Shown here: positions 27,341-59,227 of the stretch, in pieces
Layout: every line of letters begins with the position of its first letter
How positions within the stretch are numbered: position 1 is the first letter of the stretch
Assembly (NCBI GenBank): GCA_021817605.1
Contig: JAKAUN010000012.1
Coordinates: forward strand, 71,507-135,506
DNA from: Thermoplasmata archaeon
GTDB taxonomy: Archaea > Thermoplasmatota > Thermoplasmata > Lutacidiplasmatales > UBA184
Direction: 5' to 3'
DNA length: 64,000 nt
Notes under the pieces: model-generated
The model's input: the letters and a program-made list of their open reading frames with translations, nothing else
Told to the model about the DNA's origin: nothing
Databases searched by the model: none
Translations under genes and position numbers: made by a program

Positions 27341-27369
27341 AGGGCAATTTGCCTAATGCTGGTGAAAGT

Positions 27370-42514: not shown

Positions 42515-42560
42515 ATTTCCCTGTCCGCCGCCTTCTCCACGAGTGTGCCTCCTTGGTGTC

Positions 42561-44630
42561 TCACACCATCCGCCACCGCTGCCCCTTGAGCCGACGGACC
42601 TCCGCCCCGGGAATCATCCACCTCGCGCACGGGTAGGCCTGGCGAGCCTGAAGCTTCCCTCTCGATATGGCTCCTCGCAACGTCTCGACATCCGTGTCCA
42701 ACACCCTGGCGGCCTCGGTGATGGTCATCGTCGAACCTCGGGCCCGCGCCTTGATCCATCGCCGCTCCAGGCGGATCGCCTTGACTCGTCGTGCGGTCCA
42801 CTTCGGCCCGGGAACGGGGGTCCTGCCCGCCCTCGCGAGGATGCCCGCGATCTCCCCATCGCTGTAGTCGGCCGACATCTTTCGGATGATCTCCAGATCC
42901 GCGTCACGGATTCGCCGGACGTGCTGGCCACGGGAGAGCAGCTTCACCCGATCCCGCGAGACCTGTCCAGTGCTCCAGTGCACCGCGAAGTGCAAGCGGC
43001 CCGCATCGCGGTCCGCATTCGCTTCCACGTGGTGAATGAGCAGGCGGACGATCTCCTTGCGATCTTGCGGGCGCATCGCCCCGGAACTCCAGAGGTCGGT
43101 GAGGTGACTCACCGCGCGTCGAAGCTCCCTCTTCTCTTCCCCGGTCAGGGGCGGAGCCAGGCTCGCGACCCGCTTCTCGTAGCTGCTCTTCGCTTCCTCG
43201 AGGGACTTCAGCTCCTGCTCCCATTGGACCTCGAGCGCGCGGGCCACGAGGCGATTCCCGGGCTCCACCTCGTTGTACTTCCTTCGAGAACGGGCTTCGG
43301 CCTGCACCGCCCGCTCGACCTCCAGATGCCATCGTTGGAGCTGGCGAGCTCGCTCGTCTTCGAGCTCGGCTTCCGCGATCAGGGCCGCCTCGAAGCTCTC
43401 CGGCTCCAGCACCGAGAGGAGCATCTGCTCCACGCGCTCCTCGAGCAGACGTCCGCCGAAGGCCTGGCAGGGAATGCGCTGGTCGTCCGGGTCCTTCCTC
43501 CGACACGTGAACCGGGAGCAGTCGTTGCGAACTCCCGTGTAGTAGACCCCCATCGCCCTCCCGCACTTCCCACACCGCACCCGCCCCGCCAGGATCGAGC
43601 GACCCGGGCCCACCGGCCCCGGGGAAAGGAATCCCCGTCGGTTCTCCGCCAACCGTCGCTGGTTCGCCTCGAACTCGTCCCAGGTGATGAAAGCGGCGTG
43701 ATGGTCGGGAAGGAAGACCGGCCACTCACCGACCTGGTGGCGTCGGGCCTGCCGTTTGTGAATGGAACCGTCGGGGGTCACCGCGGTCTGGCCGAACGTT
43801 CGCCCATAGGCGTACGCCCCCGCGTACATCGGGTTCTTCAGGATGCCCTTGACCGACTCGAACTTCGGGGTCTGCCAGGCGACCCCCTTCTGGCCGTGGT
43901 GGTCCTTCCTCTTCGGGAGCAGGATGCCCTGGTCGGTCAGCGCCATCGAAACGCCACGAATACTCCCGAGCCGCCGGAACTCTTCGAAGACTCGGCGGAG
44001 GGCACTCCGGACCGACTCGTCCGGGACCATCTCGATCTTCTCGTCCTCGGTGTACCGATACCCCACGGGAAGCCCGTAGACGAGCTCGCCCCGGCGAGCC
44101 TTGTTCTCGGCGCCGGCCAGCATCCGCTCCCGGAGCGTGTGCAGTTCGAACTCGCTCAGGGTTCCCTTCAGCCCGAGGAGCATCCGATCGTTGTGGATCC
44201 GCAACGAGTAGACCCCTTCGTTGTCGGCGATCAGGGTGTCGACGACCATGCAGAGGTTCAGCAGGTGCTGCCAGTCCTCGTTGTTCCGAGCGAGGCGAGA
44301 CGTCTCCAGACCGATGATGATGCCGACCTTCCCGAGAGCGACCTCGGCGAGCAGCCGCTGGAATCCCAGCCGAGTCCGGCTCTCGGCGCCGGACCGTCCC
44401 TGGTCATCATCGATGACCTCGATCTGGTCGGTCCTCCAACCCAACGCCACGAGCCGATCCTGGAGACCGTACTGACGGCGCTGGCTCTCGAGGTTCCCTC
44501 GCACCTGAGCCAATGTGGACTGGCGAACGTAGAGGAGGGCCCGCCGACGCACGTGCTCGGAGTGGACCTTGGAGTTGCCGGCGAGCTCCGCGGAAACTGA
44601 AGTGACGCGGCGTTCAATGATGGAGCTCAT
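42561..44630 (-). CDS. Large serine recombinase with C-terminal helix-turn-helix (689 aa)
   Basis: An N-terminal resolvase domain carries the nucleophilic Ser in ALLYVRQSTLAQV (Ser38), with ETSRLARN further on. A recombinase domain follows (GSIRGVSMALTDQGILLPKR, KGILKNPMYAGAYAYGRT), then a zinc ribbon (RCGKCGRAMG...CRRKD) and a long coiled-coil region at about residues 410-500. The last 60 residues (TITEAARVLDTDVETLRGAI) look like an excisionase/MerR-type helix-turn-helix. It integrates and perhaps excises the element it lies in. It is preceded by an overlapping small frame. Confidence 0.93.
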   Translation of the reverse strand: MSSIIERRVTSVSAELAGNSKVHSEHVRRRALLYVRQSTLAQVRGNLESQRRQYGLQDRLVALGWRTDQIEVIDDDQGRSGAESRTRLGFQRLLAEVALGKVGIIIGLETSRLARNNEDWQHLLNLCMVVDTLIADNEGVYSLRIHNDRMLLGLKGTLSEFELHTLRERMLAGAENKARRGELVYGLPVGYRYTEDEKIEMVPDESVRSALRRVFEEFRRLGSIRGVSMALTDQGILLPKRKDHHGQKGVAWQTPKFESVKGILKNPMYAGAYAYGRTFGQTAVTPDGSIHKRQARRHQVGEWPVFLPDHHAAFITWDEFEANQRRLAENRRGFLSPGPVGPGRSILAGRVRCGKCGRAMGVYYTGVRNDCSRFTCRRKDPDDQRIPCQAFGGRLLEERVEQMLLSVLEPESFEAALIAEAELEDERARQLQRWHLEVERAVQAEARSRRKYNEVEPGNRLVARALEVQWEQELKSLEEAKSSYEKRVASLAPPLTGEEKRELRRAVSHLTDLWSSGAMRPQDRKEIVRLLIHHVEANADRDAGRLHFAVHWSTGQVSRDRVKLLSRGQHVRRIRDADLEIIRKMSADYSDGEIAGILARAGRTPVPGPKWTARRVKAIRLERRWIKARARGSTMTITEAARVLDTDVETLRGAISRGKLQARQAYPCARWMIPGAEVRRLKGQRWRMV

Positions 44631-44784
44631 CGCTGTTCCTTTCGGCTTCCTCGCGAGCGGGCTGCCCGCGGACCCAGCGCACGGCGGCTCGGGCGATCCG
44701 CTTCAACACCTCTCGGCGAACCGCCTCGGGAAGTTCGGTCAGGCGTGGCCGTGTCGGGTCTCTCCAGATCCTCTGCTGGCCCAT
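44614..44784 (-). CDS. Small frame overlapping the recombinase start (56 aa)
   Basis: Starting at ATG 44784, this frame has protein-like sequence (RLTELPEAVRREVLKRIARAA, then VRWVRGQPAREEAERN) and overlaps the recombinase start by 17 bp, so it would be translationally coupled. A different frame further upstream (complement of about 44800-44900) contains LADPQLLRRLLAHLKNRPW, also protein-like. The two could be halves of one gene broken by a frameshift. It could be an accessory factor for recombination direction; this is inference. Confidence 0.45.
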   Translation of the reverse strand: MGQQRIWRDPTRPRLTELPEAVRREVLKRIARAAVRWVRGQPAREEAERNSDELHH

Positions 44785-44928
44785 GCGGCAGAGAGGGAGG
44801 AGAGGGAGAATCCTCCCATGGCCGGTTCTTCAGGTGCGCGAGGAGCCGGCGGAGCAGTTGGGGATCGGCCAGCACCCTTCCTGTGGGAAGGGTCGCCCCG
44901 AACGGCTCAGTCTCCGGCTGTCGAGTAT

Positions 44929-44965
44929 GGGTGTGACGGGGCAATCGCCAACCCAATGCCGGAGC
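44929..44965 (+). other. attR of the serine-recombinase element
   Basis: The element-side arm GGGTGTGACGGGGCAAT at 44929-44945 is followed by CGCC and the crossover AAC at 44950-44952, after which methyltransferase codons resume (CCA ATG CCG GAG). The arm mirrors the one in attL with two mismatches, and the symmetry axis falls between the two A of the core. Confidence 0.85.
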
Positions 44966-45684
44966 CCGTCCGGGACCGTCCGACCCGGTCGCACGAATAC
45001 GTCTTCCTCCTCTCGAAGTCGCGGCACTATTTCTACGACGCCGAGGCGGTCCGGGAGCCGCTGCGGGAGAGCTCGTTGCGACGGCTGAAGCATCATCTGC
45101 CCAACCCGGCGGACAACCCTGAGTATCGGTCCAAGCACCCGAAGGGGGACTTCCGCCGCTTCCCGATGCTCGCCAACACGGACCCGACGGGACGGAACCT
45201 CCGGTCGGTGTGGCAGATCGCGACCCATCCGTATCCGGGCGCCCACTTCGCGACCTTCCCCGAAGCGTTGCCGGAGATCTGCATCCGAGCCGGAACGTCC
45301 GAGAAAGGAGCGTGTGCCAGCTGCGGGGCGCCCTACGCGCACGTCGTTCGTGCCGAGGGAGGAGGCATTGGTCATGACTGGCACCCGGTCAAGTCGCTGG
45401 CGATGGGTCGGGGCCAGGGAATCGCCGCTCCCGGCATCCACGACGGAACCTACCGGAGGGTCGACCTCGGTTTCCGCAAGGTCTGCTCGTGCGAGACCCG
45501 GCGGGTCGTTCCGTGCCTCGTGCTCGACCCGTTCATGGGAAGCGGGACAGTGCTCGCCGTGGCACGTCGGCTGAGACGCCGGTCGTTGGGCATCGACCTC
45601 AATCCCGAGTACGGAGTACTCGCCCGAGAACGCATCGGATCGGTAGCGGTCACGGCTAGCGAGATTGGGGAGGCGGTGGCATGA
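44951..45684 (+). pseudogene. DNA methyltransferase, 3' part (244 codons)
   Basis: The sequence resumes with PMPEPVRDRPTRSHEYVFLL, the usual segment after the first half in this methyltransferase family, and ends with the SAM-binding motif CLVLDPFMGSGTVLAVARRL and SLGIDLNPEYGVLARERI. Two Cys pairs (CASCG, CSCE) suggest a zinc knuckle. As it stands there is no proper start, so no complete enzyme is made. The end overlaps the short serine recombinase gene by ATGA, showing that both belonged to one operon. Confidence 0.92.
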
Positions 45685-46352
45685 CCCGGATGGCGATCTA
45701 TGCACGGGTCTCCACCAAGGACCAGTCGACGGAGGGACAGGTCGCCCAGCTCACGGCATACTGCCAGGCTCGAGGCTGGACCGATGTCGCGGTCTTCCGC
45801 GACGACGGCATCTCGGGAGTTCGGGACAACCGACCCGAGCTCGACAAGCTTCGCGAGAGAATGCTACATGGAGAGTTCTCCGCGGTCGTGGTCTCGAAGA
45901 TGGACCGTTTGGGTCGCTCGCTCGGGATGATCCTGCGATTCTGGGACGAGGCAGACTCTGCCGGGGTCCGAGTGATCATCGTCGACCAGGGCATCGACAC
46001 GTCGACGCCGGCTGGTCGACTCCAGAGGAATATGCTCGCCGCGCTGGCGGAGTTCGAGCGTGAGCTGATCCTGGAACGGACGCGGGCGGGGATCGCCCGA
46101 GCCCGTGCGCTGGGGAAGAAATTCGGAGCGCCGCGGAAGATTCCGGAGTCGGTGGCCCGGGAGGTCCGAGCTCGTCGGGAGCGTGGGGAGAGCCTCCGGA
46201 TGATCTCCCAGCGGATGAACCTCAAGCTCGGTGGCGTCCGCTCGGTCCTGAAGCGCGACCGGGGGTCGACACCCGGAAGTCGGGCAAGTCCCGTATCCCA
46301 GGACAACTCAGAGGATCGCCCATCAAGGGCGGAAGCGATCACCTCCACGTGA
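45681..46352 (+). CDS. Short serine recombinase, resolvase/invertase type (223 aa)
   Basis: The catalytic Ser is in MAIYARVSTKDQSTEGQ. The resolvase domain continues with VSKMDRLGRSLGMIL and AALAEFERELILERTRAGIARA, and ends with a small helix-turn-helix (GESLRMISQRMNLKLGGVRSVL). Size and layout match Hin/Gin invertases and Tn3 resolvases rather than large integrases. It is coupled by ATGA to the split methyltransferase and may act on site inversion or multimer resolution of the element. Confidence 0.92.
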   Translation: MTRMAIYARVSTKDQSTEGQVAQLTAYCQARGWTDVAVFRDDGISGVRDNRPELDKLRERMLHGEFSAVVVSKMDRLGRSLGMILRFWDEADSAGVRVIIVDQGIDTSTPAGRLQRNMLAALAEFERELILERTRAGIARARALGKKFGAPRKIPESVAREVRARRERGESLRMISQRMNLKLGGVRSVLKRDRGSTPGSRASPVSQDNSEDRPSRAEAITST

Positions 46353-46391: not shown

Positions 46392-47936
46392 TCAACGGAC
46401 GGCGGGGAGCGCGCGGGAGCGGGAGGACCCTTCCTCGACAGTCGCCCTTTCGAGACCCTTCCACTTCACCTGGAACCCGAGGTCCGGGAGGACGGTCGGA
46501 GAGAGGTCCCACTCCCGGAGCGCGCGTTCCACGCGTTCGAGGTCGGGCAGTGCGGAACGGACTCGCCCGAGAACCTCGGGGAGGAGTTCGCGACGCAAGG
46601 CAAAGCCTCCCGCACAGAGGAATCCCCGGGCCTCTAGGAGCTCCGCCGCCTGAGCTGTCGGCACGCGATTGTCCCGGGCGACGTCCGCGACGACCAGGGA
46701 GGCGCGGTCCGGCACGGCCAGCAGGTCGGGGGCAAGGTCACGACGCGGAAGCTCCTCGACGGCTCCCGATCCTGGCAGAAAAGGCCGGAGCTCTCCGAGC
46801 GGCAGTCCCTTCGACTTCACGATCCGTAACCGCGCGTGCCGGGTCCCCTCCCCAACCGCGAGGCCCTTCGGCGCCACCACGAGATAGGGTCCCGGCGCCC
46901 TCTCCGTCCGCTCGAGCTTCCGTTCGACCCACGCAGGAGACCAGTAGCCCACGGACTCCACATACACCGTCGTTCCATCTCGCGAGAGCGCGAGGTCGGG
47001 GTACTCGAGGCCGCCGCCCACCGCGAGCGGAGGCGGGAGACGGTCCACGGCGAAGCCGTCGCGTTCCGCCGCGGCGGCGAGAACCTCCAGGACCGGAGGG
47101 AAGGCGGGTTCGCCGGGGTCTTCGACCGGGAGGTCGAGATACTCGGCCATCGCCTCGTCCAGGTGGAAGTCGAGGTGGCGCTTCCGCCCCGCGGAGTCCC
47201 GGTAGAGCACCTTCGCCACGAGCTTCCAACCCGGCAACGAGAGGAGGTCGGGGAGGAGACGGGCGAGACGCGTTCCGTACCGCTCCGTGGAGCGGAGAAA
47301 AGCGACGACACCCTCGACTCGGAGGGTCGGGTTCTCCCCGTCTTTGGGCGCCTCCGCGGTGAACATCAGTCCTTGACGCTTGACGCGTCGGGCGGCGACC
47401 CGATACGCCTCGGAGGTCCCGAAGGTGAGGGACAGCTGGTCTGCTTTGAAGAGCAACGTCTGGCACTGCCCGAGATTGAACCGTCGGAGCAGGTCGCGGG
47501 GGTCGAGCTCGGGAACCGAGCGCAGAACCTCCTCCTCCTCGAGATCGCTCCACAGATGGTCGGCGAGCCGCTCGGGCGGAAGACCGAACTCCGGAGCCAG
47601 CCGCGCCAGGACCGCGTCGCGCTCCTCGGGGGTGACGGCGGCGCCCTTCGTCTCGTCGAACAGCCGTTCCCTCAGGCCGGACGGAGGCGGCCCCTCCCGG
47701 GGCGAGAAGGCGCAACGGCGCTCGACCAGCAGCGCGAGCCCGCGGACGACCTTGTACTTGTCGACCTTCGCCTCGAGGTCGCGGACCCGGGTTACCAGTT
47801 CGCGCCTCGTGCCGCCGACGCTGTCGCGGTAGATCCGCAGGACCGCCTCGGCCTGTGGCTGCATGGGTTCGCCGAGGAAGACCGGGCGTACGCCGTCCTT
47901 GTACGCCCGAGCGATGAGGAGCGCGCTCGGGAACAC
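46392..47936 (-). CDS. Bax1 nuclease, DUF790 family (514 aa)
   Basis: DUF790 proteins (Bax1) bind the XPB helicase in archaea and act as a structure-specific nuclease. The N-terminus has SALLIARAYKDGVRPVFLG. Near the C-terminal third is a nuclease-like core GLEYPDLALSRDGTTVYVESVGYWSPAWVE read in two parts, with Asp and Glu in PD-(D/E)XK-like spacing. It starts (GTG) two bases after the XPB stop, the usual paired order, and is convergent with the serine recombinase. Confidence 0.85.
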   Translation of the reverse strand: MFPSALLIARAYKDGVRPVFLGEPMQPQAEAVLRIYRDSVGGTRRELVTRVRDLEAKVDKYKVVRGLALLVERRCAFSPREGPPPSGLRERLFDETKGAAVTPEERDAVLARLAPEFGLPPERLADHLWSDLEEEEVLRSVPELDPRDLLRRFNLGQCQTLLFKADQLSLTFGTSEAYRVAARRVKRQGLMFTAEAPKDGENPTLRVEGVVAFLRSTERYGTRLARLLPDLLSLPGWKLVAKVLYRDSAGRKRHLDFHLDEAMAEYLDLPVEDPGEPAFPPVLEVLAAAAERDGFAVDRLPPPLAVGGGLEYPDLALSRDGTTVYVESVGYWSPAWVERKLERTERAPGPYLVVAPKGLAVGEGTRHARLRIVKSKGLPLGELRPFLPGSGAVEELPRRDLAPDLLAVPDRASLVVADVARDNRVPTAQAAELLEARGFLCAGGFALRRELLPEVLGRVRSALPDLERVERALREWDLSPTVLPDLGFQVKWKGLERATVEEGSSRSRALPAVR

Positions 47937-47938
47937 GG

Positions 47939-49390
47939 CTACCCCGGAGCGGTGGCTCCACGGGGACGGCCCCGCGGCGCACGTCGCGTCCGGGTCGGCA
48001 CCGCCGGAGCGGCGCCCTCGTTCTCCCGTCCGCTATTCCCCATCCCGCGCTTCCTCCGAGCCGCCGTCCCCATCTCGCTCGTGTCCCGCGACAGCACCTC
48101 GTAGAGGACCGCCTGCTTCCCCTCTCGGGGACGGAGGATCCGCCCGAGCCGCTGGCGGAACTGCCGGGGACTCCCCGACCCCGACAGCACGATCGCCACC
48201 GACGCCTCGGGGACGTCCACGCCCTCGTCGAGCACCCGGGAGGTCGCGAGGACCGTGTTCCTCCCCTCCTTGAAGCGGGCGAGGATCCCCTTGCGTTCCT
48301 CGTCGGGGGTCTTGTACGTGAGGCACGGAACGAGCAGCGCCCGCCCGAGGTCGTAGACCTGGTCGGTCTGTTCTGCGAAGATCAGGGTCCGCGCCCCACG
48401 GTGGCGGGAGAGCAGGGTCCGCACCGCCTCGAGCTTCGCCCGCGGGTTGAAGGCGAGCTCCCGCGAGCGCCGCCACGCCAGCAATGCCTCGCGTCCCTCC
48501 GGGTTCCAGGAGCGGCGGATGAACTTCTCGAAGTCCCACGGACCCCGAAGGACCATCCGCCGGGAACGAAGGTAGCGCACGAAGGTTTCGTGCGTCGTCT
48601 CGTACTCCTCCTGTTCCTCGGGCGAGAGCTCCACCTTGACCTTCACGAGCGTGAAGTCGGCGAGGTAGTCGGTGAGCTCCTCGTAGCCGCGTTCGAACAG
48701 CTTGCCGCCCATGAGCGTCTCGAGCTCGAGATGGAGAAGATCGGCCCGCTCGTACGTCGCCGTGAGGCCGAGGCGGGCGGGAGCGCAGTACATCTCGGCG
48801 ATGTGGCGGTACTGGGGCGAGGGGAGGTGGTGGACCTCGTCCACGACCAGGAGACGAAACCGGTTCCCCAGGCTCTCGGCCCGGATCAACGCCGAATCGT
48901 AGGTCGATACCATGATCGGCTTGACGTCCGCGACGCCTCCGCCGAGGCGCCCCACGTCCACGCCGAAGACATCGGCGAGCTTCGCCATCCACTGGTCGAT
49001 GAGATCGATGGTCGGGACGACCACGAGGGTCGATCCTCCCACTTCGCGGATCGCCTCCAGTGCGACGTGGGTCTTCCCTGCGGCGGTGGGCAGGACGATG
49101 ACCCCCCGGCGGCCTCCCTCCTTCCACGCCGCCACCGCCTCCTTCTGGTACGGGCGCAGGCGCTCCGCATGTTCGAGCGTGGGTGCCGGGAGAGGGTCGA
49201 GAGCTCGGTCCTCGAAACCGCCCGGGAGCGTTGCCCCCCACGCCGCGAGGTCGGCGTACGCCATCGCAAGGGCACGATACGCCCCCACGCGCTCGTCCCA
49301 CAGGCCCGTGGGGGGCCGGGCGCCCTTGACCAGCAACGTCCCCTTGTCAAACGACAGCGTCGGGAGGGCCGTAGGGTTGGCGCCGGGCAT
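47939..49390 (-). CDS. xpb: XPB-type DNA helicase (483 aa)
   Basis: Superfamily 2 helicase related to eukaryotic XPB, used in DNA repair. Walker A is VIVLPTAAGKTHVALEAI, the DEAD-box version is VVDEVHHLPS, motif III LTATYERAD, and the second RecA domain has FAEQTDQ and RQFRQRLGRILRPREGKQAV (motif VI). A thumb-like insertion lies at about 240-300. The RED motif of XPB, expected in the LTAT-X-X-RED context, reads RAD here. Its partner nuclease Bax1 follows. Confidence 0.92.
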   Translation of the reverse strand: MPGANPTALPTLSFDKGTLLVKGARPPTGLWDERVGAYRALAMAYADLAAWGATLPGGFEDRALDPLPAPTLEHAERLRPYQKEAVAAWKEGGRRGVIVLPTAAGKTHVALEAIREVGGSTLVVVPTIDLIDQWMAKLADVFGVDVGRLGGGVADVKPIMVSTYDSALIRAESLGNRFRLLVVDEVHHLPSPQYRHIAEMYCAPARLGLTATYERADLLHLELETLMGGKLFERGYEELTDYLADFTLVKVKVELSPEEQEEYETTHETFVRYLRSRRMVLRGPWDFEKFIRRSWNPEGREALLAWRRSRELAFNPRAKLEAVRTLLSRHRGARTLIFAEQTDQVYDLGRALLVPCLTYKTPDEERKGILARFKEGRNTVLATSRVLDEGVDVPEASVAIVLSGSGSPRQFRQRLGRILRPREGKQAVLYEVLSRDTSEMGTAARRKRGMGNSGRENEGAAPAVPTRTRRAPRGRPRGATAPG

Positions 49391-49506
49391 TGCGAGGGCG
49401 ATGCCGGTCCTGCCGAAAAAGGTGAGGTGACCCTCCCGCTCGTCCTACACGGCAGGCACACGATCGCGGGAAGGGTAGCGGATCTTGCTCGATCCGGCGG
49501 CACCGA

Positions 49507-50175
49507 TCACGCTCGTCGTCGCGAGCGCAGGAACTCGTCCACCTCCCGTTCCGCATCCCATCGGATCGGACGTACGTCCTCGTCGTCCAGGCCGAAACCT
49601 CCTCGCTCGAGCGCCTTCTCATACGAGGTGTAGCGATGCCGCAGATGCGCTCGGACCGCCCATCGGGCCTTCTCCTCGAGGGAAAGACGCGAGGTCCGCC
49701 CCACCCGACCGCTTTGCTTCACCGTGGCGTGGAGCGACGTTTCGCGAGCGATCGTCCGCGCACTCGCGAGGAACCGGGGAGCGAAGTCCAGGTATCGGAG
49801 GCAGGCGGCCTCAAACGATTGCCGGTACCGCTCCTCGACTCGGCGTCGCTGAACCTCGGCCCGCTCACGGGCCTTCGCGCGGGCCGCCCGGGTTTCTTCC
49901 TCTCTCCGCTCCCCTTCGCTCAGGGCCGTTCCAGGACAGAGGATCCCCAGGGTCTCGGTGTACTTCCGGCGCCTCTTGAGCAACACCCAGTAGGCGCCCT
50001 GCCGCTTGACCTCGCGCGCAAGAAATGCGTTGCCGGGAGGAACGAAGACCCAGCCCGACGGCAGCGGGAGGTTCCCGAGATCCGGATTCCAGTACCCTTC
50101 CCCCTCCCTGGCGTGCCAGACCTTCAGTTCCCGGGTCGCCGCGGGATCGATTGGTGCGTGTTCCGGAGTCGGCAT
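49507..50175 (-). CDS. DUF2293-domain protein (222 aa)
   Basis: The C-terminal third matches the DUF2293 pattern: SGRVGRTSRLSLEEKARWAV, then AHLRHRYTSYEKALERGG and a final charged helix. The N-terminal part (LPLPSGWVFVPPGNAFLAREV, then KRQGAYWVLLKRRRK) is the conserved region that often precedes it. A long basic coiled-coil stretch joins them. The function of DUF2293 is unknown. The start ATG 50175 is chosen; an earlier start at 50292 has low-complexity codons. It lies between XPB and the CARF regulator. Confidence 0.75.
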   Translation of the reverse strand: MPTPEHAPIDPAATRELKVWHAREGEGYWNPDLGNLPLPSGWVFVPPGNAFLAREVKRQGAYWVLLKRRRKYTETLGILCPGTALSEGERREEETRAARAKARERAEVQRRRVEERYRQSFEAACLRYLDFAPRFLASARTIARETSLHATVKQSGRVGRTSRLSLEEKARWAVRAHLRHRYTSYEKALERGGFGLDDEDVRPIRWDAEREVDEFLRSRRRA

Positions 50176-50367: not shown

Positions 50368-51138
50368 CTAGCCTAGGATGCCCAGCCTTGGCCGCTTGGT
50401 CAGTTGATGCTGAAACATCCTGTTACCCCAAACCCCGCGCTCCGAGGCGGATATTCGGAGCTGCTTTCCTCGGCCCTCGGAGGATATGAAGCCCCATGAG
50501 TCGAGGTGACCGAGGACGGTGTTCGCCTGGGCTTGAAGTGCCTGAGGGCTGGCGATCGTGCTTTGTCGAGGCCCGAGCAGACCCTGATCGCTGAGGTGCC
50601 GAATCAGGTCACGTTTGGAGACGGGCCCTCCTCGAGAGCAGAGGTACTGAAGAGCGGTCACGCTCGCCCGGTCGAGGAGTGGGATCTCGAAAGTGGGGAT
50701 AAACTGGGGCGGTCCGTGTACCGGGTAATCTTCCTCTCCGTGAACCGTCTTTCCGTCGTAGTCGACCGCGACATAGTAAGGCTTGACGTTCCAGAACATT
50801 CCGGCGATCGTTCCGGCGATGCATGCGGTCTTCGCCCCCGAGGAGACGTTGTAGAAGTACTCGTGTTGAGGGGCAGAAGTCACGATGGCACCCACCTCGT
50901 CGACTACCGCGCCGGCGTTCCAGATGTCGCAATTCACGACATGGGTCCGAATCTTGGGAGTCGACTCTTCGAGTAGCTGTTTGATCTTCCCCAATTCGTG
51001 ACGGAGTCGATCCGTGAGGCTGAAGGTGACGAGCAACACGACATCCGCCTGAAGGTCGCGGGCGGGCTCAACAACTCGCCGAATCTGCAAGCCTACTGCC
51101 GCAAAGTGAACCCTGAGCCGAACTGCGGGGTGGACCAT
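50368..51138 (-). CDS. CARF-winged-helix regulator, HFX_2341/DUF6293-like (256 aa)
   Basis: Residues 1-130 form a CARF-type Rossmann domain: VHFAAVGLQIRRVVEPARDL, a switch strand VVLLVTFS, and the ligand-binding loop YFYNVSSGAKTACIAGTIAG at residues 94-113. The C-terminal 110 residues are a winged helix (VSKRDLIRHLSDQGLL, then ANTVLGHLDSWGFISSEGRG). This is the layout of HFX_2341-family regulators, in which CARF domains bind cyclic or modified nucleotides. No CRISPR genes are in the window. The ATG at 51138 has a perfect GGAGGAGGT site; ATG 51171 is upstream. It is transcribed away from the Ubl operon. Confidence 0.85.
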   Translation of the reverse strand: MVHPAVRLRVHFAAVGLQIRRVVEPARDLQADVVLLVTFSLTDRLRHELGKIKQLLEESTPKIRTHVVNCDIWNAGAVVDEVGAIVTSAPQHEYFYNVSSGAKTACIAGTIAGMFWNVKPYYVAVDYDGKTVHGEEDYPVHGPPQFIPTFEIPLLDRASVTALQYLCSRGGPVSKRDLIRHLSDQGLLGPRQSTIASPQALQAQANTVLGHLDSWGFISSEGRGKQLRISASERGVWGNRMFQHQLTKRPRLGILG

Positions 51139-51178
51139 GTACCTCCTCCGATGTAGGACGTTGTACGGCATCCACCGT

Positions 51179-51222
51179 ACTTAAGCTTAGTAAGCTTGTT
51201 AAGTCACACATGCTTAATTAAT
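51179..51222. promoter_or_regulatory. AT-rich divergent promoter/operator with imperfect inverted repeat
   Basis: In a GC-rich genome this stretch is strikingly AT-rich. Positions 51179-51204 hold ACTTAAGCTTA and AAGCTTGTTAAGT, two half sites that are reverse complements apart from a two- to three-base shift. At 51214-51222, TTAATTAAT is a good TATA box for the rightward Ubl operon. The repeat lies between the CARF regulator gene and the operon, so it is a likely binding site of that regulator. Confidence 0.6.
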
Positions 51223-51276
51223 CTCGGGTCCGTACTCTGTTCGGGGGGATCGAGTACGGCGGAAGGCAACGAAATC

Positions 51277-51534
51277 GTGCGACCTGCGGAGCACCCGGGA
51301 CATCATGAGATTTTCGTGGGGGACATCCGCGAGGAGTGGAATCAGAACGAGGTCCTGGCATCGGACATCATGGGCAAGGCGGGGGTGGCCAACACGGCCG
51401 GGCTGGTCCTGGAGGCCCTGAACAAGAAAAACGGGAACGCGGTCGCGGAGTTCAAACCGACCGACAAGGTGAACCTCGACCTCCCAGAGCGCAAGTTCTT
51501 CAGAATCACCGCGGGCGGTGGGGGATTCAGCTGA
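51277..51534 (+). CDS. Ubiquitin-like protein (85 aa)
   Basis: The frame from GTG 51277 is a small beta-grasp-like protein: a first strand HEIFVGD, a helix-containing middle (SDIMGKAGVANTAGLVLEAL), and late strands VNLDLP and KFFRITA. It resembles single units of the prokaryotic multiubiquitin family. The C-terminus is A-GGGG-F-S: a Gly run followed by two extra residues, as in ubiquitin precursors that need trimming. The next genes encode E2-like and JAB-E1 proteins, which supports a modifier role. Assignment rests on context and tail as much as on sequence. Confidence 0.75.
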   Translation: MRPAEHPGHHEIFVGDIREEWNQNEVLASDIMGKAGVANTAGLVLEALNKKNGNAVAEFKPTDKVNLDLPERKFFRITAGGGGFS

Positions 51535-51535
51535 C

Positions 51536-51970
51536 GTGGCCGAGGATGGGCTTCCGGAACCCCTCCGCGCGGCACTCGCTCACCTTCGGGCCGACGGATT
51601 TCCCGAAGTCAAGGTCGACGCAGTCGCGGACAACTGGGCTTACGTTTGGCTTCCCCAGCTACATTTCGACCAGGCGAAGTACCCAGAGCCCGAGCGGCGC
51701 GGGGTTTGGATTCGCCTCCCAATCCAGTTTCCGTTCGCCAATCCTCACGGGATGGTCACCAAGGAACCGCTGAACCCGAAGGATGGTCACGCTGTGCCAG
51801 GCCACAACCCGAATCACGACATGTGCAGGCCAGTTGGATCTCTGGGGGGCGCCCATTACTACAGCTGGAGTTGGGGCGCCGGTCCACTCGGGGAAGCACC
51901 GTCCTTGTCAGCACCGACCGACATCACCAAGGTGGTCGCATGGTACGAACGTCGAATCCGGTTGGCGTAG
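51536..51970 (+). CDS. E2-like (UBC) conjugating protein (144 aa)
   Basis: The protein has an E2-like layout: hydrophobic strands WAYVWLPQLHF and GVWIRLPIQFPFANPHG, where the Pro-rich turn mirrors the E2 core, then NPNHDMCRPVG with the only cysteine of the protein (Cys97), placed where E2 enzymes carry the catalytic Cys. HYYSWSW and a C-terminal helix TKVVAWYERRIRL follow, as in prokaryotic E2 families that accompany multiubiquitin. It starts two bases after the Ubl stop (GTG 51536; GTG 51518 is possible) and overlaps the E1 gene by 31 bp. Confidence 0.75.
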   Translation: MAEDGLPEPLRAALAHLRADGFPEVKVDAVADNWAYVWLPQLHFDQAKYPEPERRGVWIRLPIQFPFANPHGMVTKEPLNPKDGHAVPGHNPNHDMCRPVGSLGGAHYYSWSWGAGPLGEAPSLSAPTDITKVVAWYERRIRLA

Positions 51971-53460
51971 AGGAGCTGGAATTCGCCCTCACCGGCGAGG
52001 CGCAGGCCCTCGCGATCCACACGCTCTTCTCGGAAGAGGGGCCCCGGACGCCCGAAAGGGGGTTTGTCGGGATTCTCGGTTCGGCCACAGGTCTCCGCCG
52101 GCGCCGTCTCTTTCTTCGACGGATTGTCCCGCAGGACCCCGGCTGGGTCTACTGGGATAGGAAAGGCCTCGGTTTCTCCCATCGCTACTTCAGCCGGGCA
52201 TTGGACCTGATTTCGACGGAACCCAGCGGGTCGGGGCTCCTAGTCGTCCACTCCCACCCAGGATCCCCTAGTGATGTCTGGACGTCGCCCCAGCCGAGTT
52301 CTCCAGATCTAGAGCATGAGCGGGAACTACTCTGGCACCAATCGAGGGCTCTGCCAGGGGCGGCTCCAGTCGCGGCGGGAATCGTCGGACCTTCTGGTGG
52401 CTGGCGGGTGCGCGAGTACTTTTGGAGACGGCCGAGGACTCCGGCGGAGGCCGCATCACGACGATTCGGGCCGAGAAGTGGGGTCCACCATGACGCGAGC
52501 GTCGTCAGCGTCGTCGGACCAGGTCACATCGATCTGCACTTCGCCGCCTCAGCAGGTCGATCCGCAAGCGCGGCGAAGGAGGTGGAAAGCAGTGTTCTAA
52601 TCTGGGGTCAGGAGGGACAAGAACGGCTCGGGCGACTTCGCGTCGGAATCGTTGGGCTTGGAGGCGTTGGGAGCATTCTTGCGGAGTTCGCACCCCGACT
52701 TGGCGTGGGAGAACTCGTCCTCGTGGACTACGACACAGTCAAACTCGAGAACCGGAATCGGGCAGTCGGCGCGTCGCGAAGAGACATGGGAAGGGCGAAA
52801 GTCCTGTACTGCGCACGCGTAGCGAAGTCCGCAGCGGTTGCCAGCCAGTTCAAGGTCCTGGCCGTCATCGGGAGCGTGCAGGAAGAGTCCGGCATCCGTC
52901 CGCTGCTGGACTGCGATGTAATTCTGAACGCTTGCGACGATCCTGCGGGAAGGCAGGTGCTCGATCATGTTGCATATGCCCACATGATTCCCGTCATTGA
53001 CGGAGGCACCACCCTCTTTGTCGACGACGGCAACGGTCGAGTCATCGGTAGGTCCCAGGTTTCCGGAGCGGCCCCCGGCGCCCCTTGCCTCGAATGCACA
53101 GGAGTCTACACCCGAGAGGAGGCCTCCATGGCGCGTGAACGGCCAGAGATGAGGGGGCCGAACGCGTATCTCCGACGCCTTGACAGAGGATTCGATTCCG
53201 ACCTCCCGCGCGCCCCGAGTGTAATTTCGAGTAACGGACTCGTAGCGTCCTTGATGCTAATGCGTCTCCAAAGAATTGTCCTCGGTTTCCCTCCCCGCGG
53301 GCGAGTCGCCCAACAGAGCTACTATGTCGAGCAGGGTGAACTCCTGTGGGGGCACGCGGCAGAGAGTTGCAAGCCCGATTGCTACAAACCCTCCTTGGTG
53401 GGACTTGGGGACGCGCATACGTTACCCACCGGTGTTGACTTGAACAGAAATCGGAGCTAG
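51940..53460 (+). CDS. JAB protease-E1 fusion (506 aa)
   Basis: Residues 1-170 are a JAB/MPN metalloprotease: a Glu in ERGFVGILGSA, then LLVVHSHPGSPSDVW with His104 and His106, and SSPD giving Ser120 and Asp123; the gap between the His pair and Ser-X-X-Asp is longer than in the classic JAMM motif. Residues 230-500 are a ThiF/MoeB-type E1: LRVGIVGLGGVGSILAEFA, LVDYDTVKLENRNRAVG with the Arg-rich adenylation loop, and two Cys pairs (C383/C386 and C477/C481) for zinc. One chain would thus both activate the Ubl and trim or remove it. Start ATG 51940 lies within the E2 gene. Confidence 0.88.
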   Translation: MVRTSNPVGVEELEFALTGEAQALAIHTLFSEEGPRTPERGFVGILGSATGLRRRRLFLRRIVPQDPGWVYWDRKGLGFSHRYFSRALDLISTEPSGSGLLVVHSHPGSPSDVWTSPQPSSPDLEHERELLWHQSRALPGAAPVAAGIVGPSGGWRVREYFWRRPRTPAEAASRRFGPRSGVHHDASVVSVVGPGHIDLHFAASAGRSASAAKEVESSVLIWGQEGQERLGRLRVGIVGLGGVGSILAEFAPRLGVGELVLVDYDTVKLENRNRAVGASRRDMGRAKVLYCARVAKSAAVASQFKVLAVIGSVQEESGIRPLLDCDVILNACDDPAGRQVLDHVAYAHMIPVIDGGTTLFVDDGNGRVIGRSQVSGAAPGAPCLECTGVYTREEASMARERPEMRGPNAYLRRLDRGFDSDLPRAPSVISSNGLVASLMLMRLQRIVLGFPPRGRVAQQSYYVEQGELLWGHAAESCKPDCYKPSLVGLGDAHTLPTGVDLNRNRS

Positions 53461-53555: not shown

Positions 53556-53588
53556 ACAGCGCTCCGTGTTCATTCGGGCCTTGCCTAG

Positions 53589-55327
53589 TTCTACTTTGAC
53601 AGTCGCTCCGGCCCCTCCGAGGTAGCCCGGCAGGGGGAGGGGGTTCTTCGGGTGGAACTCCCAGTTTCAAGATACCCTCCGAAGGCTTCCCGGGCATGGG
53701 AGCCGCACCCCTGCGCGCCAACGAGCCCCCCCGGACCATCGCCGACCTCAACCCCGAGACCCGGGAGCCGTGGTACCCGGCCTTCGACCGCTACTTCCGG
53801 ACCTACGCCCCCCTCTTCGACCTCGACGGGACCGGTCGCACGGCGGAGCAGGCCCGTCTCTACGCCTGGGGCCTCCTCGGCAACGAGGAGGTCAAGTCGA
53901 TGCAGCCCCTCGCCGAGCGCACCGCCACCCCCTACCACCGGACCCAGCACTTCATCACCGACTCCCCCTGGCCCCCCGAGCTCGTCCAGCTTGCCCACGC
54001 GAAGGAGATGGGGAGGCGTTTCGCCTCCCCGAACGGGGTCCTGGCCTTGGATGATGAGGGGGACCCGAAGAAGGGGAAGGACTCCGCGGGGGTGTACCGC
54101 CAGTACTGCGGGAACCGAGGGAAGGAGGAGAACTGCCAGGTGGGAGTCTGCCTCTCCTACGTCCGCCCCCACCCCGAGCGCTACGCCGACACGGAGAGCT
54201 TCGGGATGGGGATGCGGCTCTACCTCCCGAAGGAGAGGGCGGAGGATCTCGTCCATCGCCAGAAGACCCACGTCCCCGCGGAGATCGAGTACGAGCCGAA
54301 GTGGAAGATCGGCCTCGGCCTTATCGACCGGGTCCTCCCGTTGGGGATCCCGCACCGGGCGGTGGCGGCCGACGCGGACTACGGTCGGGCAGGGGACTTC
54401 CGTAAGGCCCTGCGGGACCGGAAGGAGGCGTATGTGCTGGGTGTGCCGCCGACCCGGACCCATGTGGCGGTGCTCGGGAAGGACGGACGTCCCGGGGAGT
54501 CGCGGAAGCTCTCGGAGGTGGCCAAGGGACTTCCCAAGAAGGCGTGGAAGAGGGTGACCTGGTCGCAGGGGACGAAGGGGAACCTGACGATGGAGGTGGC
54601 CCGGCTTCGGGCCAAGGTGTGCGCCGAGGGAGAGCCCATCGAGGAGGAGGAGGTCTGGGTCGTCTTCGAGCGGAGGACGAACGAGACGAAGGCCTACGTG
54701 ATCTGGGGTCTGGACGAGCTGGGGCTGCGGGCCCAGCTCCAGTTGATCCGGGCTCGTTGGGGGATCGAGCTATGGTTCGAACACGCGAAGAGCGAACTGG
54801 GGTTGGATCAATTCGAGGGACGCACGTGGCCGGGGTGGCACCACAACGTGACGATGGTGACGCTGGCCCACGGGTTCCTGATGGTGCAGAGGTCCCAAGG
54901 GAAGGGGAAGAAGGGGGAGCCGCTCCCGACGTTGCCGACGGTCAAGCTGGGGGTGCAGCACCGGGTGACGATCGAACTGGGTAAGCGGCTGATCGAGGAG
55001 GAGGACCGGGACCGGCGGGAGCGGTTGCTGATCACGATGTCGTATGCGATGGGAAGGCCCCCCAAGCTGACGGAGGACGGGCACATCTTCGTCTCGAGCG
55101 ACTGGCGGGACTACCTGGACGCACCGCGCTGGTGAGACGCGCTCCCGACGGGAGCGGCGGGCAATGATCTCGTCAGCGGGCCGCGAGGCCCGAGCCGCCG
55201 CAGCCGGAGAGAACGAACCGTTCCCCAGACGAGGGCTGCGAGGGAGATCCTCGCCTCCTCGGCCCTCGGAGGCGGTCCCCTTGTGAGGCTGCGCGATCGG
55301 GCACCCGCCGGGACTGTCAAAGTAGAA
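53589..55327 (+). mobile_element. IS701-family insertion sequence (1,739 bp)
   Basis: The ends carry perfect 16-bp inverted repeats TTCTACTTTGACAGTC, flanked by CTAG on both sides (53585-53588 and 55328-55331), a 4-bp target duplication of the YTAR type used by IS701 elements. The target was a near-palindrome: CCTTGC-CTAG-TCAAGG with the IS removed. One transposase gene fills the element. It sits between the convergent E1 and Rad50-like genes and breaks neither. Confidence 0.92.
53696..55135 (+). CDS. IS701-family DDE transposase (479 aa)
   Basis: The DDE triad is visible: first Asp in GVLALDDEGDPKKGKDSAGV, second Asp in HRAVAADADYGRAGDFRKAL, and Glu in GIELWFEHAKSELGLDQFEG. The linked text YRQYCGNRGKEENCQVGVCL is typical of IS701 transposases. 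The frame is full length and undamaged, so the element may still be active. ATG 53696 is the likely start. Confidence 0.93.
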   Translation: MGAAPLRANEPPRTIADLNPETREPWYPAFDRYFRTYAPLFDLDGTGRTAEQARLYAWGLLGNEEVKSMQPLAERTATPYHRTQHFITDSPWPPELVQLAHAKEMGRRFASPNGVLALDDEGDPKKGKDSAGVYRQYCGNRGKEENCQVGVCLSYVRPHPERYADTESFGMGMRLYLPKERAEDLVHRQKTHVPAEIEYEPKWKIGLGLIDRVLPLGIPHRAVAADADYGRAGDFRKALRDRKEAYVLGVPPTRTHVAVLGKDGRPGESRKLSEVAKGLPKKAWKRVTWSQGTKGNLTMEVARLRAKVCAEGEPIEEEEVWVVFERRTNETKAYVIWGLDELGLRAQLQLIRARWGIELWFEHAKSELGLDQFEGRTWPGWHHNVTMVTLAHGFLMVQRSQGKGKKGEPLPTLPTVKLGVQHRVTIELGKRLIEEEDRDRRERLLITMSYAMGRPPKLTEDGHIFVSSDWRDYLDAPRW

Positions 55328-55427
55328 CTAGTCAAGGCGGTCCCATCTCTGAGGGTGACGAACCGCAGAGGGAGACGCAGTCATCGCTCGCCTTCCAGTT
55401 CCATGAAGTCCGTGCCCAGATACATCC

Positions 55428-58124
55428 TCACTCGCTTCCGGTCTTTCCACCCTCCGGGACGCGTACGATCTCCGCGTTCAACCCCGCGTAGAGACCATCG
55501 TTGCAGGTCGTCATCAGGATCTGGCACTTCTCCCCCACGTCCTCCAGTATGCCTAGGAACCGGCCGGCTCTTACCGAGTCGGCGTTCACCAACCTGTCAT
55601 CCAGGACGACCACCTGCTTTTCGTCCCTGCTTGCGAGCACGCCCATGGCAAGCCGAACGAGGACGATGACCTGCTCATGAGTGCCGAAGCTGAGAAGGGA
55701 AAGCGGGATGGGGGTCCCATCGGTCATTCCAACCGAAGTCGGGAGTAGATCGCTATCGAGGTCGATGTTGTTGTACCTGCTGCTGGTTAGGCTCCGGAGC
55801 CAGGGTCCGACTAACTCTCGAACCGGTTGGGTGAGCGCCCTCGTCCGCGTCGCTTGGCAATCCAAGAGAACGGCGCGAAGGAGTTCGACAGCGGCGGCGC
55901 GCCGCTCGAGGATTGGGAGTCTACGCTGGAGGAACCCTAGCTCTCCCCCTGCGTCGCCCTCTGCGGAGTAAACACCCTGGCGAGTAATCTCTTCGACCCG
56001 GCTCTCGTGGCCGGCCAACTCGCGCCGGATCTCGGTGATGCGCGACTCGAGGGATTTGATCGCTCTTTCAGCCCGGGTGAGCCGCTCCTTCGGCTCGGTC
56101 ACCTTCTGGGCAATCTCCTCCTCAACTCCTTCGCGGGTCTTTCCGAGGCGGAGAACCTCGTCGACGGCGGCCGTCACCGCGCGGTCCAAAGCGGTGAGAG
56201 ATCCGTACTCCTGAACGACTTTCTCTAACTCCATCCGTTGCTGGTCCCTCTTGGCAAGCGCTTCCTTCAGCTGGATCTCGAGGTCTGCGGCCTCCCGCAG
56301 CAGTCCCTCCGCCCTCGTAGTCGAACCCCGTTCTTGCTTGTCGAGTTTGTCGATGGTCTGGATCATCTCCTTTTTGGTGCGCTTGAGTTCCCCGATGCGG
56401 GACCGGATTCGCTCACCACCCCAACTCTTGGCGTCGACCGGAATATTGCCGAGCTTGGCCGCTTCATCGTCGAGGCCCCGTCGAGAGTCCTTCAACTCCT
56501 TGGCCGCGGTAGGATTCTCGTTCTTGAGGTCCTTAACCTTCTTGCGAAGGGATTTCACGTCGCTTTCGAGCGCCTGCCGGGACGCGAACGCCTTGGCGAG
56601 AGCGTCCGCATCCATGACGCCAAAGTGACGAAGGGTTTCCGCGCTCTCCGCTCGCAGACGATCACACTCGGCGGATAGCTCTTCAAGTGAGGCGCCGACT
56701 CCGCGAACGTGAACACGGGCCACCCCATCGATATCGAACGTCGTGGGACGTGCGATTAGGTATTCCCCATTTTCGCGGTTCGGGACCGGATTCGCTGTGA
56801 CTCGCGATGTCTTCTTACGAAGTTCGATCCCCACTCGAATTGAACTGGCCTGCGCTTTCCCCTCGGCAACCTTGAGTTGCGTCGAGAGCTGCTGATACTC
56901 CCCCCACTCTGCGACGGTGGGGGAGTTCGATTGCTCGAGCTCTTTTTCCCTGCTCCCCAGCTCCTCCTCTGCCGCGTGCAGGCGACTGAGGTACTGCTCG
57001 AGACCCCGGATAGTCTTTTCCAAGGTATGGTGACGCTCGAGGCCGGTCAGGCTCTCCAGTTCTGCTTCGACGCGTTTCAGTTCGGGTTCCTTCTCCTCCT
57101 TACGTTGCCGGCGTAACCGCTCCACCACCTGCTGTTCGACCTTCGCTTCGGCCTCTCTGTCCCGCTGACTCCTTTCCTTCTCGGGCAAGCTCGCGGCGAG
57201 AGATTCTAATGCCTCCTTCCTGGCCGAAACGCCTGATCGTACTTTCTTCAAATTCTCCGATCGTTCTCTGGCCGACCGCAGCTCGGCCTCCATGCGGACC
57301 TTTTTCTCGAGGACCGCTCCCGAGGCTTCAACCGCCTCACTTGCCACACGGGCTTCGGTTTGCGCGCGAACGAGAAGGGTAGTCTTCTCCTCGACCTCTG
57401 TTTCGAGACGTTCCATTGCCTCTCTGGACTCGCGGATACGCTCCCGTGATTCTCGATGAGCCGTGACACGGGCCGCCAAGTGCTCGGTCTGTTCGCGCAC
57501 CAGCGTTAATTCGCTCCCGGCCTTGGTCCGCCCGGTGGGGGTAAAGACGTCGTTGTGCACTCGGGTGACACGGTCGATTACCTCCTCTTCGAGAGGTGTG
57601 CGGGCGGCAATCTGGACCACACCCCCCAGACCCCTTTGGACCCCTTCGTTCCAAGTCTTCTCCGGGACGGCGGCTTCCGTCTGCAAGTACCACAGCGCCT
57701 CCGCAAGACCCCGGTGTTTGGATTGGGTGAGTCCCTTCCCCGGGAAGGTTCCGCCGGCGATCTCCAGAACGTTCCTGTCCGCGTCGTCCCCGTCATCTCG
57801 GACTTGAAAAACCCCTCCCCGCTCCGTCGACAGTTCCGCACGGGGCTCCTTGAGGAATCTCTTCCAGATTCTGTAGCGTTGGCCGTTGACTCGGAAGATG
57901 ACTGTAATCTCAGGCGCAATCGTCGTCCCAAGAGGCTGAACGGCCTTGATTTCCTCCGAGGCTCCGCTGTGGCGGTCGAAGAGGGCCCGCTGCAGAGCCT
58001 CCAGGAGTACGCTCTTCCCGGCCTCGTTCGGCCCAACCAGGAGGTTGACCTTGTCGCCAAAGCGGAAGGTCCGTGGCTCGCGGTAACTCTTCCAGCCCTG
58101 AAGAGTGATCTCCTCGACGATCAT
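55428..58124 (-). CDS. Rad50/SbcC/YhaN-like SMC-type ATPase without zinc hook (898 aa)
   Basis: A split-head ATPase with long coiled coils. Walker A is LLVGPNEAGKSVLLEAL (residues 29-45); the C-terminal head has the signature LLSFGTHEQVIVLVRLA and Walker B VVVLDDRLVNAD. Coiled coils occupy about 200-420 and 500-720. At the apex, where Rad50 has a CXXC hook, there is a small domain (YLIARPTTFDIDGVARVHVRG) with no Cys pair, as in YhaN-type proteins. It overlaps the Mre11-like gene by ATGA, so both form one complex acting on DNA ends, in repair or defence. Confidence 0.88.
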   Translation of the reverse strand: MIVEEITLQGWKSYREPRTFRFGDKVNLLVGPNEAGKSVLLEALQRALFDRHSGASEEIKAVQPLGTTIAPEITVIFRVNGQRYRIWKRFLKEPRAELSTERGGVFQVRDDGDDADRNVLEIAGGTFPGKGLTQSKHRGLAEALWYLQTEAAVPEKTWNEGVQRGLGGVVQIAARTPLEEEVIDRVTRVHNDVFTPTGRTKAGSELTLVREQTEHLAARVTAHRESRERIRESREAMERLETEVEEKTTLLVRAQTEARVASEAVEASGAVLEKKVRMEAELRSARERSENLKKVRSGVSARKEALESLAASLPEKERSQRDREAEAKVEQQVVERLRRQRKEEKEPELKRVEAELESLTGLERHHTLEKTIRGLEQYLSRLHAAEEELGSREKELEQSNSPTVAEWGEYQQLSTQLKVAEGKAQASSIRVGIELRKKTSRVTANPVPNRENGEYLIARPTTFDIDGVARVHVRGVGASLEELSAECDRLRAESAETLRHFGVMDADALAKAFASRQALESDVKSLRKKVKDLKNENPTAAKELKDSRRGLDDEAAKLGNIPVDAKSWGGERIRSRIGELKRTKKEMIQTIDKLDKQERGSTTRAEGLLREAADLEIQLKEALAKRDQQRMELEKVVQEYGSLTALDRAVTAAVDEVLRLGKTREGVEEEIAQKVTEPKERLTRAERAIKSLESRITEIRRELAGHESRVEEITRQGVYSAEGDAGGELGFLQRRLPILERRAAAVELLRAVLLDCQATRTRALTQPVRELVGPWLRSLTSSRYNNIDLDSDLLPTSVGMTDGTPIPLSLLSFGTHEQVIVLVRLAMGVLASRDEKQVVVLDDRLVNADSVRAGRFLGILEDVGEKCQILMTTCNDGLYAGLNAEIVRVPEGGKTGSE

Positions 58125-59227
58125 CCTTGAGCCTCTCGAACGAACTGCCGGAGGATCGTCCTGGCCTCGGAGACTACCTCTGGGGACGGAGCGGCTGAAC
58201 TGCCGTCGTTCTTGCTTTCAAGGACGGCGTCCGCTTCGGCAATCAGGCCCAACGGCAGAGAGGTCTCCAGAACGGTTGGCGCCTGCAGACTCTCCTCGGG
58301 CCAGTCGAGGAAGAACGTGGTTTGTTCGAGCTCGAGGCGGAGGCCCGCCAAGGTCTCTTGGACATCTCGGGCGGCGGTGTTGAGCCGCGGGTGCAGCCGG
58401 AGGACCAGCGATGAAGATGGGCCGAGCGACTTGAGTCGGCGCTCCAGCGCGCCGACGTCGCTTTGGTCCGATACTTGCGGATCCTCCGCATGCCACTGAA
58501 GGATCCCTACACGTTCGGGCCGGACTGAGGGAGTTGCACTGGCCTCGGAGACTTCCGCGATCAGGACATTGCCTGGGTCGTGCTCGTCGAAAGCCGTCGG
58601 CTCCGGCGTTCCAGGGTAGAAGCAACGTCCCTGAATCCGCAGGCCGTGCCAATCACCCAACGCGAGGTAGTCCAGCCCTGAGAGCTCCGGGCGGTTCGCC
58701 GGGATTGGAAAGTTTACAGAGGTCCCTAGGACATCTAGGCCGCCGTGTGCAACGCCGATGCGGATGCGATTGTCATTTGGCACACGTGGTGGAATCCAGG
58801 CCGTGGGGTCTCGTGCGGTTCGTTTCTGGCGGAGCGGACACGGGTAGAGCGCGACTTCCTCGTTGACGCAGACCTCGTTCGGCCCGTCGAGGAGGCAGAC
58901 GTTCGCGCCGATGCGGGTTCGCCACGAGGCGCGGGCCCAGATGGAACCTGGTCCCATGGGATCGTGATTCCCCGGGAGAACATAGACTGGGATGGGGTCG
59001 ATTCCATTCAAGACGTCAGTCACGCGGCGGACGACAGCGTCGTCGGCATCCTGATCGTCAAACACGTCACCTGCCAATACGATGAAGTCGACACGTTGGC
59101 GGCGGGCGAGTTCCGAGATTTTCGAGATGGTATCGTAGCGGGTTTCGCGTACGGCTCGTGCTTTCGGCCCCATTTGGGCCGCCTTCATCCCCATCTGCCA
59201 GTCGGACGTGTGCAGAAATCGGACCAT
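58121..59227 (-). CDS. Mre11/SbcD-like metallophosphoesterase nuclease (368 aa)
   Basis: Calcineurin-like phosphoesterase with the DNA-repair nuclease motifs: FLHTSDWQMG (Asp9, with Gln where His is usual), VLAGDVFDD (Asp54), VLPGNHDP (Asn-His-Asp at 87-89), RIGVAHGGLD and LALGDWHG. The C-terminal 130 residues form a separate domain of the type that binds the ATPase. It is the first gene of the pair with the Rad50-like ATPase. Upstream is a long intergenic region shared with a divergent DoxX-like gene. Confidence 0.87.
   Translation of the reverse strand: MVRFLHTSDWQMGMKAAQMGPKARAVRETRYDTISKISELARRQRVDFIVLAGDVFDDQDADDAVVRRVTDVLNGIDPIPVYVLPGNHDPMGPGSIWARASWRTRIGANVCLLDGPNEVCVNEEVALYPCPLRQKRTARDPTAWIPPRVPNDNRIRIGVAHGGLDVLGTSVNFPIPANRPELSGLDYLALGDWHGLRIQGRCFYPGTPEPTAFDEHDPGNVLIAEVSEASATPSVRPERVGILQWHAEDPQVSDQSDVGALERRLKSLGPSSSLVLRLHPRLNTAARDVQETLAGLRLELEQTTFFLDWPEESLQAPTVLETSLPLGLIAEADAVLESKNDGSSAAPSPEVVSEARTILRQFVREAQG

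Follow-up and report, generated by a model that had tools for sequence, protein, structure and literature searches.

The 64,000-nucleotide stretch of a Thermoplasmata archaeon analyzed here (the window; contig JAKAUN010000012.1, assembly GCA_021817605.1) carries, at 50368-53460, a gene for a regulator with CARF and winged-helix domains and, facing away from it, genes for a ubiquitin-like protein (Ubl), an E2-like protein and a fusion of JAB and E1 domains (JAB-E1). These four open reading frames (ORFs) had been reported in a preliminary description made from the sequence alone, and all four were verified in the window. The Ubl, E2-like and JAB-E1 genes span 51277-53460 on the plus strand, with the CARF gene on the minus strand, and since they overlap their neighbors, these three tightly packed genes, described as such from the start, are read as a single operon. 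Recurrence of the same three-gene order in 18 haloarchaeal loci indicates that the trio exceeds chance. The features discussed below are as follows.

50368..51138, minus strand: CARF winged-helix regulator gene of the HFX_2341/DUF6293 family (PF19810, PF22665, PADLOC CARF3).
51139..51276, unstranded: divergent promoter region of 138 bp, the interval separating the CARF and Ubl start codons.
51163..51180, unstranded: candidate operator 1, the inverted pair GTACGG-N6-CCGTAC on the CARF side (repeat search).
51183..51197, unstranded: AT-rich perfect inverted repeat AAGCTTA-N-TAAGCTT, a possible TATA region of the CARF gene (putative promoter role).
51213..51222, plus strand: CTTAATTAAT, a possible TATA region of the Ubl operon (putative role).
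51230..51259, unstranded: candidate operator 2, the inverted pair CCGTACTC-N14-GAGTACGG on the operon side (repeat search).
51277..51534, plus strand: Ubl gene, 85 aa, of the multi-ubiquitin/BubA type with the tail GGGGFS (family profile, AlphaFold2 model, PDB match, hhalign).
51518..51970, plus strand: gene for the E2-like protein, with a Ser-x-x-Trp motif at S116-W119 and without a conserved Cys (profiles, conservation, operon place).
51940..53460, plus strand: JAB-E1 fusion gene, with JAB at about residues 12-164, E1/ThiF at about 221-454 and a Cys4 zinc-type site (PF00899, BubCD relative, conservation).
53585..55331, plus strand: insertion sequence (IS) with a DDE_5 transposase, adjoining the operon and outside the Ubl system (20-bp perfect terminal inverted repeats).

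The CARF protein matches both PF19810 (HFX_2341_N, E 3.9e-19) and PF22665 (DUF6293 winged helix, E 1.1e-8) above their cut-offs, which places it in the HFX_2341/DUF6293 family, and its CARF domain contains the NVSSGAKTA loop by which it had been recognized. PADLOC labels it CARF3 (E 4.6e-34), the Csa3 profile matches weakly and below the family cut-off (E 0.0015), and a PDB sequence search returned no significant match. Because the Shine-Dalgarno sequence GGAGGAGGT stands before ATG 51138 on the minus strand, this start is more likely than the alternative upstream ATG 51171, giving a protein of probably 256 aa. HFX_2341 itself regulates genes globally in haloarchaea, has homologues in species that lack CRISPR, and represses many genes in Haloferax mediterranei, cas genes included on over-expression (PMC11434293). 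As this example shows, CARF winged helix-turn-helix (wHTH) regulators with no link to CRISPR had been described before. A CARF-controlled Ubl operon without CRISPR genes had been proposed as new; the pairing itself was seen only here.

The first gene of the operon is predicted to encode a beta-grasp Ubl of the multi-ubiquitin type. An AlphaFold2 model built from a two-sequence alignment (predicted local distance difference test score, pLDDT, 73) arranges its strands and helix in the order of a beta-grasp, and its best PDB match is the bacterial multi-ubiquitin protein 8u38 (probability 0.98, TM 0.57, E 0.19), with BubA and Methylobacterium multi-ubiquitin also among the matches, across which E-values run from 0.2 to 0.7. 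Comparison with the bacterial Multi_ubiq set by hhalign gave P 1.2e-4, a Pfam scan gave no direct match, and PDB sequence searches with the Ubl and E2-like profiles returned nothing significant. The beta-grasp-like character first noted for this protein is supported by the model and the match to 8u38. As the Gly-rich tail (...TAGGGGFS) extends past the glycines, trimming by the JAB domain would be expected.

The E2-like gene starts at GTG 51518 or GTG 51536, ends at 51970 and encodes one Cys, as first described, but that Cys is not common to relatives: of 17 E2-like proteins, at most four have a Cys in any one alignment column, and no other has the Cys of the window protein, which is therefore no evidence for a classical E2. 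What is conserved instead is the Ser-x-x-Trp motif, with Ser116 and Trp119 each found in 16 of the 17 proteins.

The JAB-E1 protein is the JAB-ThiF fusion that had been proposed. It matches ThiF (PF00899) at E 3.8e-32; its N-terminal JAB domain is missed by Pfam, yet aligns to Citrobacter BubCD, the best relative of JAB-E1 among all PDB chains. A nine-member JAB-E1 family profile matches BubCD at E 1.7e-38, separately over JAB (9-142) and E1 (184-400), an alignment over both domains that establishes a JAB fused N-terminally to E1. The JAMM residues E39, H104, H106, S120 and D123 are all present, and E39, H104 and D123 are invariant among relatives; H106 is replaced by Gln in four haloarchaeal copies. 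The corresponding HTQP in place of HTHP in L017, L169, L170 and L171 suggests that the JAB domain of this subgroup may be catalytically changed. Near-invariant cysteines of the E1 domain are C383, C386, C477 and C481, spaced as in MoeB/ThiF zinc sites and presumably of similar role, together with C325 in a hydrophobic LLDCDVI stretch. These four zinc-type cysteines, in an E1 with no other plausible catalytic Cys, could be taken to indicate a sulfur-carrier or tRNA-thiolation system like SAMP/Urm1 rather than protein tagging. We regard this as very improbable, given a dedicated E2-like gene, a Ubl tail that runs past the glycines, a JAB domain fused to E1, BubCD as the nearest structure, and the plasmid and mobile settings of these operons.

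A combination of polyUbl, inactive E2 and JAB-E1 constitutes class 6e of Iyer et al. 2006 (PMC1779556), and the BubCD relationship ties this class 6e-type operon to systems now named Bub (PMC13373217). L206, a bacterial relative, has Multi_ubiq (PF14452) and Prok-E2_E (PF14462) proteins as the products of its two small genes. Prok-E2_E is matched by the E2-like protein of L004/L173 as well, and the E2-like gene of the window stands in its operon where Prok-E2_E stands in relatives. The fourth gene of class 6e, for a metal-binding protein, is absent from the window, where the IS follows E1, and was treated as optional, since it is also not an annotated neighbor in the haloarchaeal operons. The operon is an archaeal branch of the known bacterial polyUbl (Bub) kind.

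Archaeal relatives were retrieved by several routes. In tblastn searches, ten haloarchaeal plasmids matched the JAB-E1 fusion at 32-36% identity over 80% or more of its length, and two small "hypothetical" genes precede the fusion in 7/7 haloarchaeal regions examined. With profiles built here, adjacent Ubl, E2-like and E1 genes were found in the 18 haloarchaeal loci (16 genome regions, L156-L171, plus L009 and L017), which are mostly plasmid-borne; aligned haloarchaeal JAB-E1 copies are 33-38% identical to the window protein. A pattern scan from a four-row E1 alignment contributed a single further haloarchaeal locus, L017, besides numerous distant bacterial E1s. Two genomes of the window's class hold partial or diverged versions, L172 with Ubl and E1 and L173 with E2-like protein and E1. 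In a tree, the window JAB-E1 groups with haloarchaeal proteins and the two same-class copies with actinobacterial ones; the exact place of the window protein is uncertain because its branch is long. Viral contigs and phage records held no relatives of JAB-E1 or of the CARF protein.

Two variations among the haloarchaeal loci were observed. Ubl proteins of about 190-220 aa occur in L012, L013, L015, L017 and L169-L171; in these the Ubl domain follows a long, charged N-terminal extension that is probably helical. On the plasmids L009, L010 and L011, a phospholipase D/TDP-like gene lies upstream of the Ubl operon block and RNase H-like and DEAD/DEAH helicase genes lie downstream, joined in L011 by a Piwi gene.

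Horizontal acquisition of the operon, also anticipated in the preliminary description, is supported by three observations. Full-length JAB-E1 is confined to the window's genome among 103 genomes of its family; GC content at the locus is lower than in the window's first 40 kb (61-63% vs ~70%); and mobile elements flank the locus, namely the IS and two serine recombinases (42561-44630 and 45681-46352). At this GC content the DNA is AT-rich only in relative terms, contrary to what had been stated.

The 138-bp intergenic region contains four CCGTAC/GTACGG copies, a number reached in no other 100-bp stretch of the window, arranged as two inverted pairs. If 51183-51197 and 51213-51222 are TATA regions, each pair would lie at a predicted transcription start. 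Of 20000 Markov shuffles of the region, 3 produced such a double inverted pair, a post hoc count for which the spacer limit was widened after operator 2 had been seen.

In relatives, the position divergent from the Ubl gene is commonly taken by a regulator-like gene. ImmA/IrrE genes are divergent from the Ubl gene in actinobacterial relatives (fused to a helix-turn-helix, HTH, in L207), and haloarchaeal divergent genes encode AAA-wHTH (L166/L013), weakly HTH-like (L165) and ribbon-helix-helix (L164) proteins. Among 544 bacterial Bub operons, 219 carry CapW or CapH+CapP and 59 carry CapK+CapS (PMC13373217). The CARF gene occupies the position held by DNA-damage switches in bacterial relatives, and because unrelated DNA-binding or ImmA/IrrE genes hold this same divergent position, local control of the operon by the CARF protein is plausible.

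Building on the gene identities, the operon order and its recurrence, the BubCD and multi-ubiquitin relationship, residue conservation and the inverted repeats, we favor, with confidence that is evenly balanced, a horizontally acquired Bub-like operon under local control of its divergent HFX_2341-family CARF winged-helix regulator. In this model, in which repression and its release by a signal, transfer through Ser, the targets and any defense role are all putative, the CARF protein, probably dimeric, would bind the two inverted CCGTAC pairs overlapping both divergent promoters and repress its own gene and the operon until a signal lifts repression; the repressor behavior of HFX_2341 (PMC11434293) was counted in favor of this step. 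JAB would cut the Ubl tail back to the glycines and may also take the tag off again, adenylation of the Ubl would fall to the E1 domain, and the E2-like protein, lacking a conserved Cys, might act via its Ser116 motif or as a scaffold; the Ubl would become attached to target molecules. Were the CARF protein to control the operon, one more type of switch, unrelated to the others, would be known at the regulator position of these systems, and the search for the ligand of HFX_2341-type proteins could start from a defined local target.

Several observations weigh against this reading. Conservation of the CARF gene beside the operon, on which the preliminary description had staked its proposal in advance, was not found: a CARF hidden Markov model built here detected an HFX_2341-type gene near 0/20 other archaeal Ubl operons, over about 5-10 kb per side in most cases and less for L172 and at contig ends. 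Conversely, none of 20 CARF loci of the phylum contains a Ubl or E2-like gene, and no plasmid record is common to the E1 and CARF-gene matches among the best listed; the pairing is a single observation. The double CCGTAC pairs may themselves be due to chance, because 20 of 2777 positions across the window show a double inverted pair of one 6-mer or another, and inverted CCGTAC pairs are found nowhere else in the 2.5 Mb of loci scanned, CARF relatives included, which leaves these operators without comparative support. For the E2-like protein, no significant profile match supports a UBC fold, and a fold search with its structure model (pLDDT 67, poorer than that of the Ubl) placed Ube2W first and an RWD domain second, neither significantly.

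Absence of the pairing near the 20 other operons and at the 20 CARF loci also suits a different explanation, that the two are chance neighbors: the operon would have landed beside an unrelated CARF gene whose product acts elsewhere in the genome, as the global action of HFX_2341 (PMC11434293) would allow, leaving the operon constitutive or otherwise controlled. An island rich in mobile elements fits such an arrival, and we consider it a possible, if somewhat doubtful, account. Arguing against it are the close head-to-head arrangement with only 138 bp between the genes, the inverted-pair sites at both promoters, and the presence of other kinds of regulator in the same position in relatives; the CARF gene is moreover rare in the order and so may have arrived with the operon. 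In the 106 genomes of the order, a close relative (about 50% identity) occurs in one other genome, which lacks a Ubl operon; the idea that the CARF gene belongs to the resident core of the lineage was accordingly rejected.

Beyond local control by the CARF protein lies the identity of the signal. In the model drawn from the preliminary description, the CARF domain would sense cyclic (oligo)nucleotides made on infection by binding them and so turn on the Ubl operon, an antiviral defense. The CARF domain with its NVSSGAKTA loop is consistent with this, and Csa3, a remote relative, is reported to bind cyclic oligoadenylate (PMC8844856). Searches for Cas1, Cas10 palm2, SMODS (CD-NTase) and DAC (DisA) gave no match in the window's genome, other cyclases not having been searched; the genome (1.75 Mb) has an estimated completeness of 100%, and all four families give matches in control genomes. 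Cas10, the cyclase of cyclic oligoadenylate signaling in type III CRISPR, is thus among the families not found. The nucleotide-messenger switch is therefore unsupported. In addition, no ligand is reported for HFX_2341 in PMC11434293, and phage protection by Bub operons is not shown, per PMC13373217. An antiviral role is conjectural. We judge the infection-triggered switch unlikely, and hold equally little confidence that the CARF protein directly gates an archaeal Ubl operon upon a nucleotide-type signal as a new class of controller outside CRISPR.

Other features of the window lie outside the Ubl locus. A DNA N6/N4 methylase gene appears to be split at 41847-45684, its left ORF covering PF01555 positions 1-87 and its right ORF 84-183, with the large serine recombinase gene (42561-44630, minus strand, similar to XisF) between the halves; an element looks to have been inserted at the motif ...CIWAK / NPMPE..., where no direct repeat longer than 8 bp was seen. 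A tRNA-Lys at 40481 was considered as an integration site and rejected, its T-arm sequence GGTTCGAATCC having no second copy in the window. The XPB helicase and Bax1 nuclease genes at 46392-49629 are 94% identical in DNA to sister genome G245, with differing, rearranged flanks; XPB is present in 3 of 41 genomes of the genus, and the pair may itself be mobile. A gene pair at 55428-59227, for a Rad50/SMC-like ATPase and an SbcD/Mre11-like phosphoesterase, falls well below the Rad50/Mre11 cut-offs and is possibly an accessory, defense-type SbcCD relative. A thermosome gene at 27349-28992, together with the XPB and Bax1 genes, marks the host as archaeal.

Compared with known regulators, the CARF protein shares with HFX_2341/DUF6293 proteins both Pfam domains above cut-off and the lack of a link to cas genes, but the window gene adjoins a Ubl operon, whereas its haloarchaeal counterpart lies on the chromosome, is passed on vertically and acts globally. 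It resembles the CRISPR-associated Csa3 regulators in combining CARF and winged-helix domains and in a weak profile match, and differs in scoring below the family cut-off and in residing in a genome in which neither Cas1 nor Cas10 was found. Bil operons and the Cap2/Cap3 proteins of type II CBASS share Ubl-type E1 and JAB chemistry with the window operon, whose JAB and E1 are fused; its E1 is only weakly like BilD (E 3e-4), and the CD-NTase (SMODS) of type II CBASS was not found in the genome. Closest are the Bub/class 6e operons, with which the window operon shares a Ubl, an E2-like protein without a conserved Cys, a JAB domain fused to E1, a mobile setting and an adjacent regulator. It differs from them in being archaeal, in its single short Ubl, in an E1 with a Cys4 zinc-type site, in lacking a fourth metal-binding gene, in low sequence identity and in having a CARF regulator instead of CapW, CapH+CapP or CapK+CapS. 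The literature descriptions found of Bub/polyUbl operons concern bacteria only; to these is added here an archaeal group, mostly on haloarchaeal plasmids, marked by the Ser-x-x-Trp motif in an E2-like protein with no conserved Cys.

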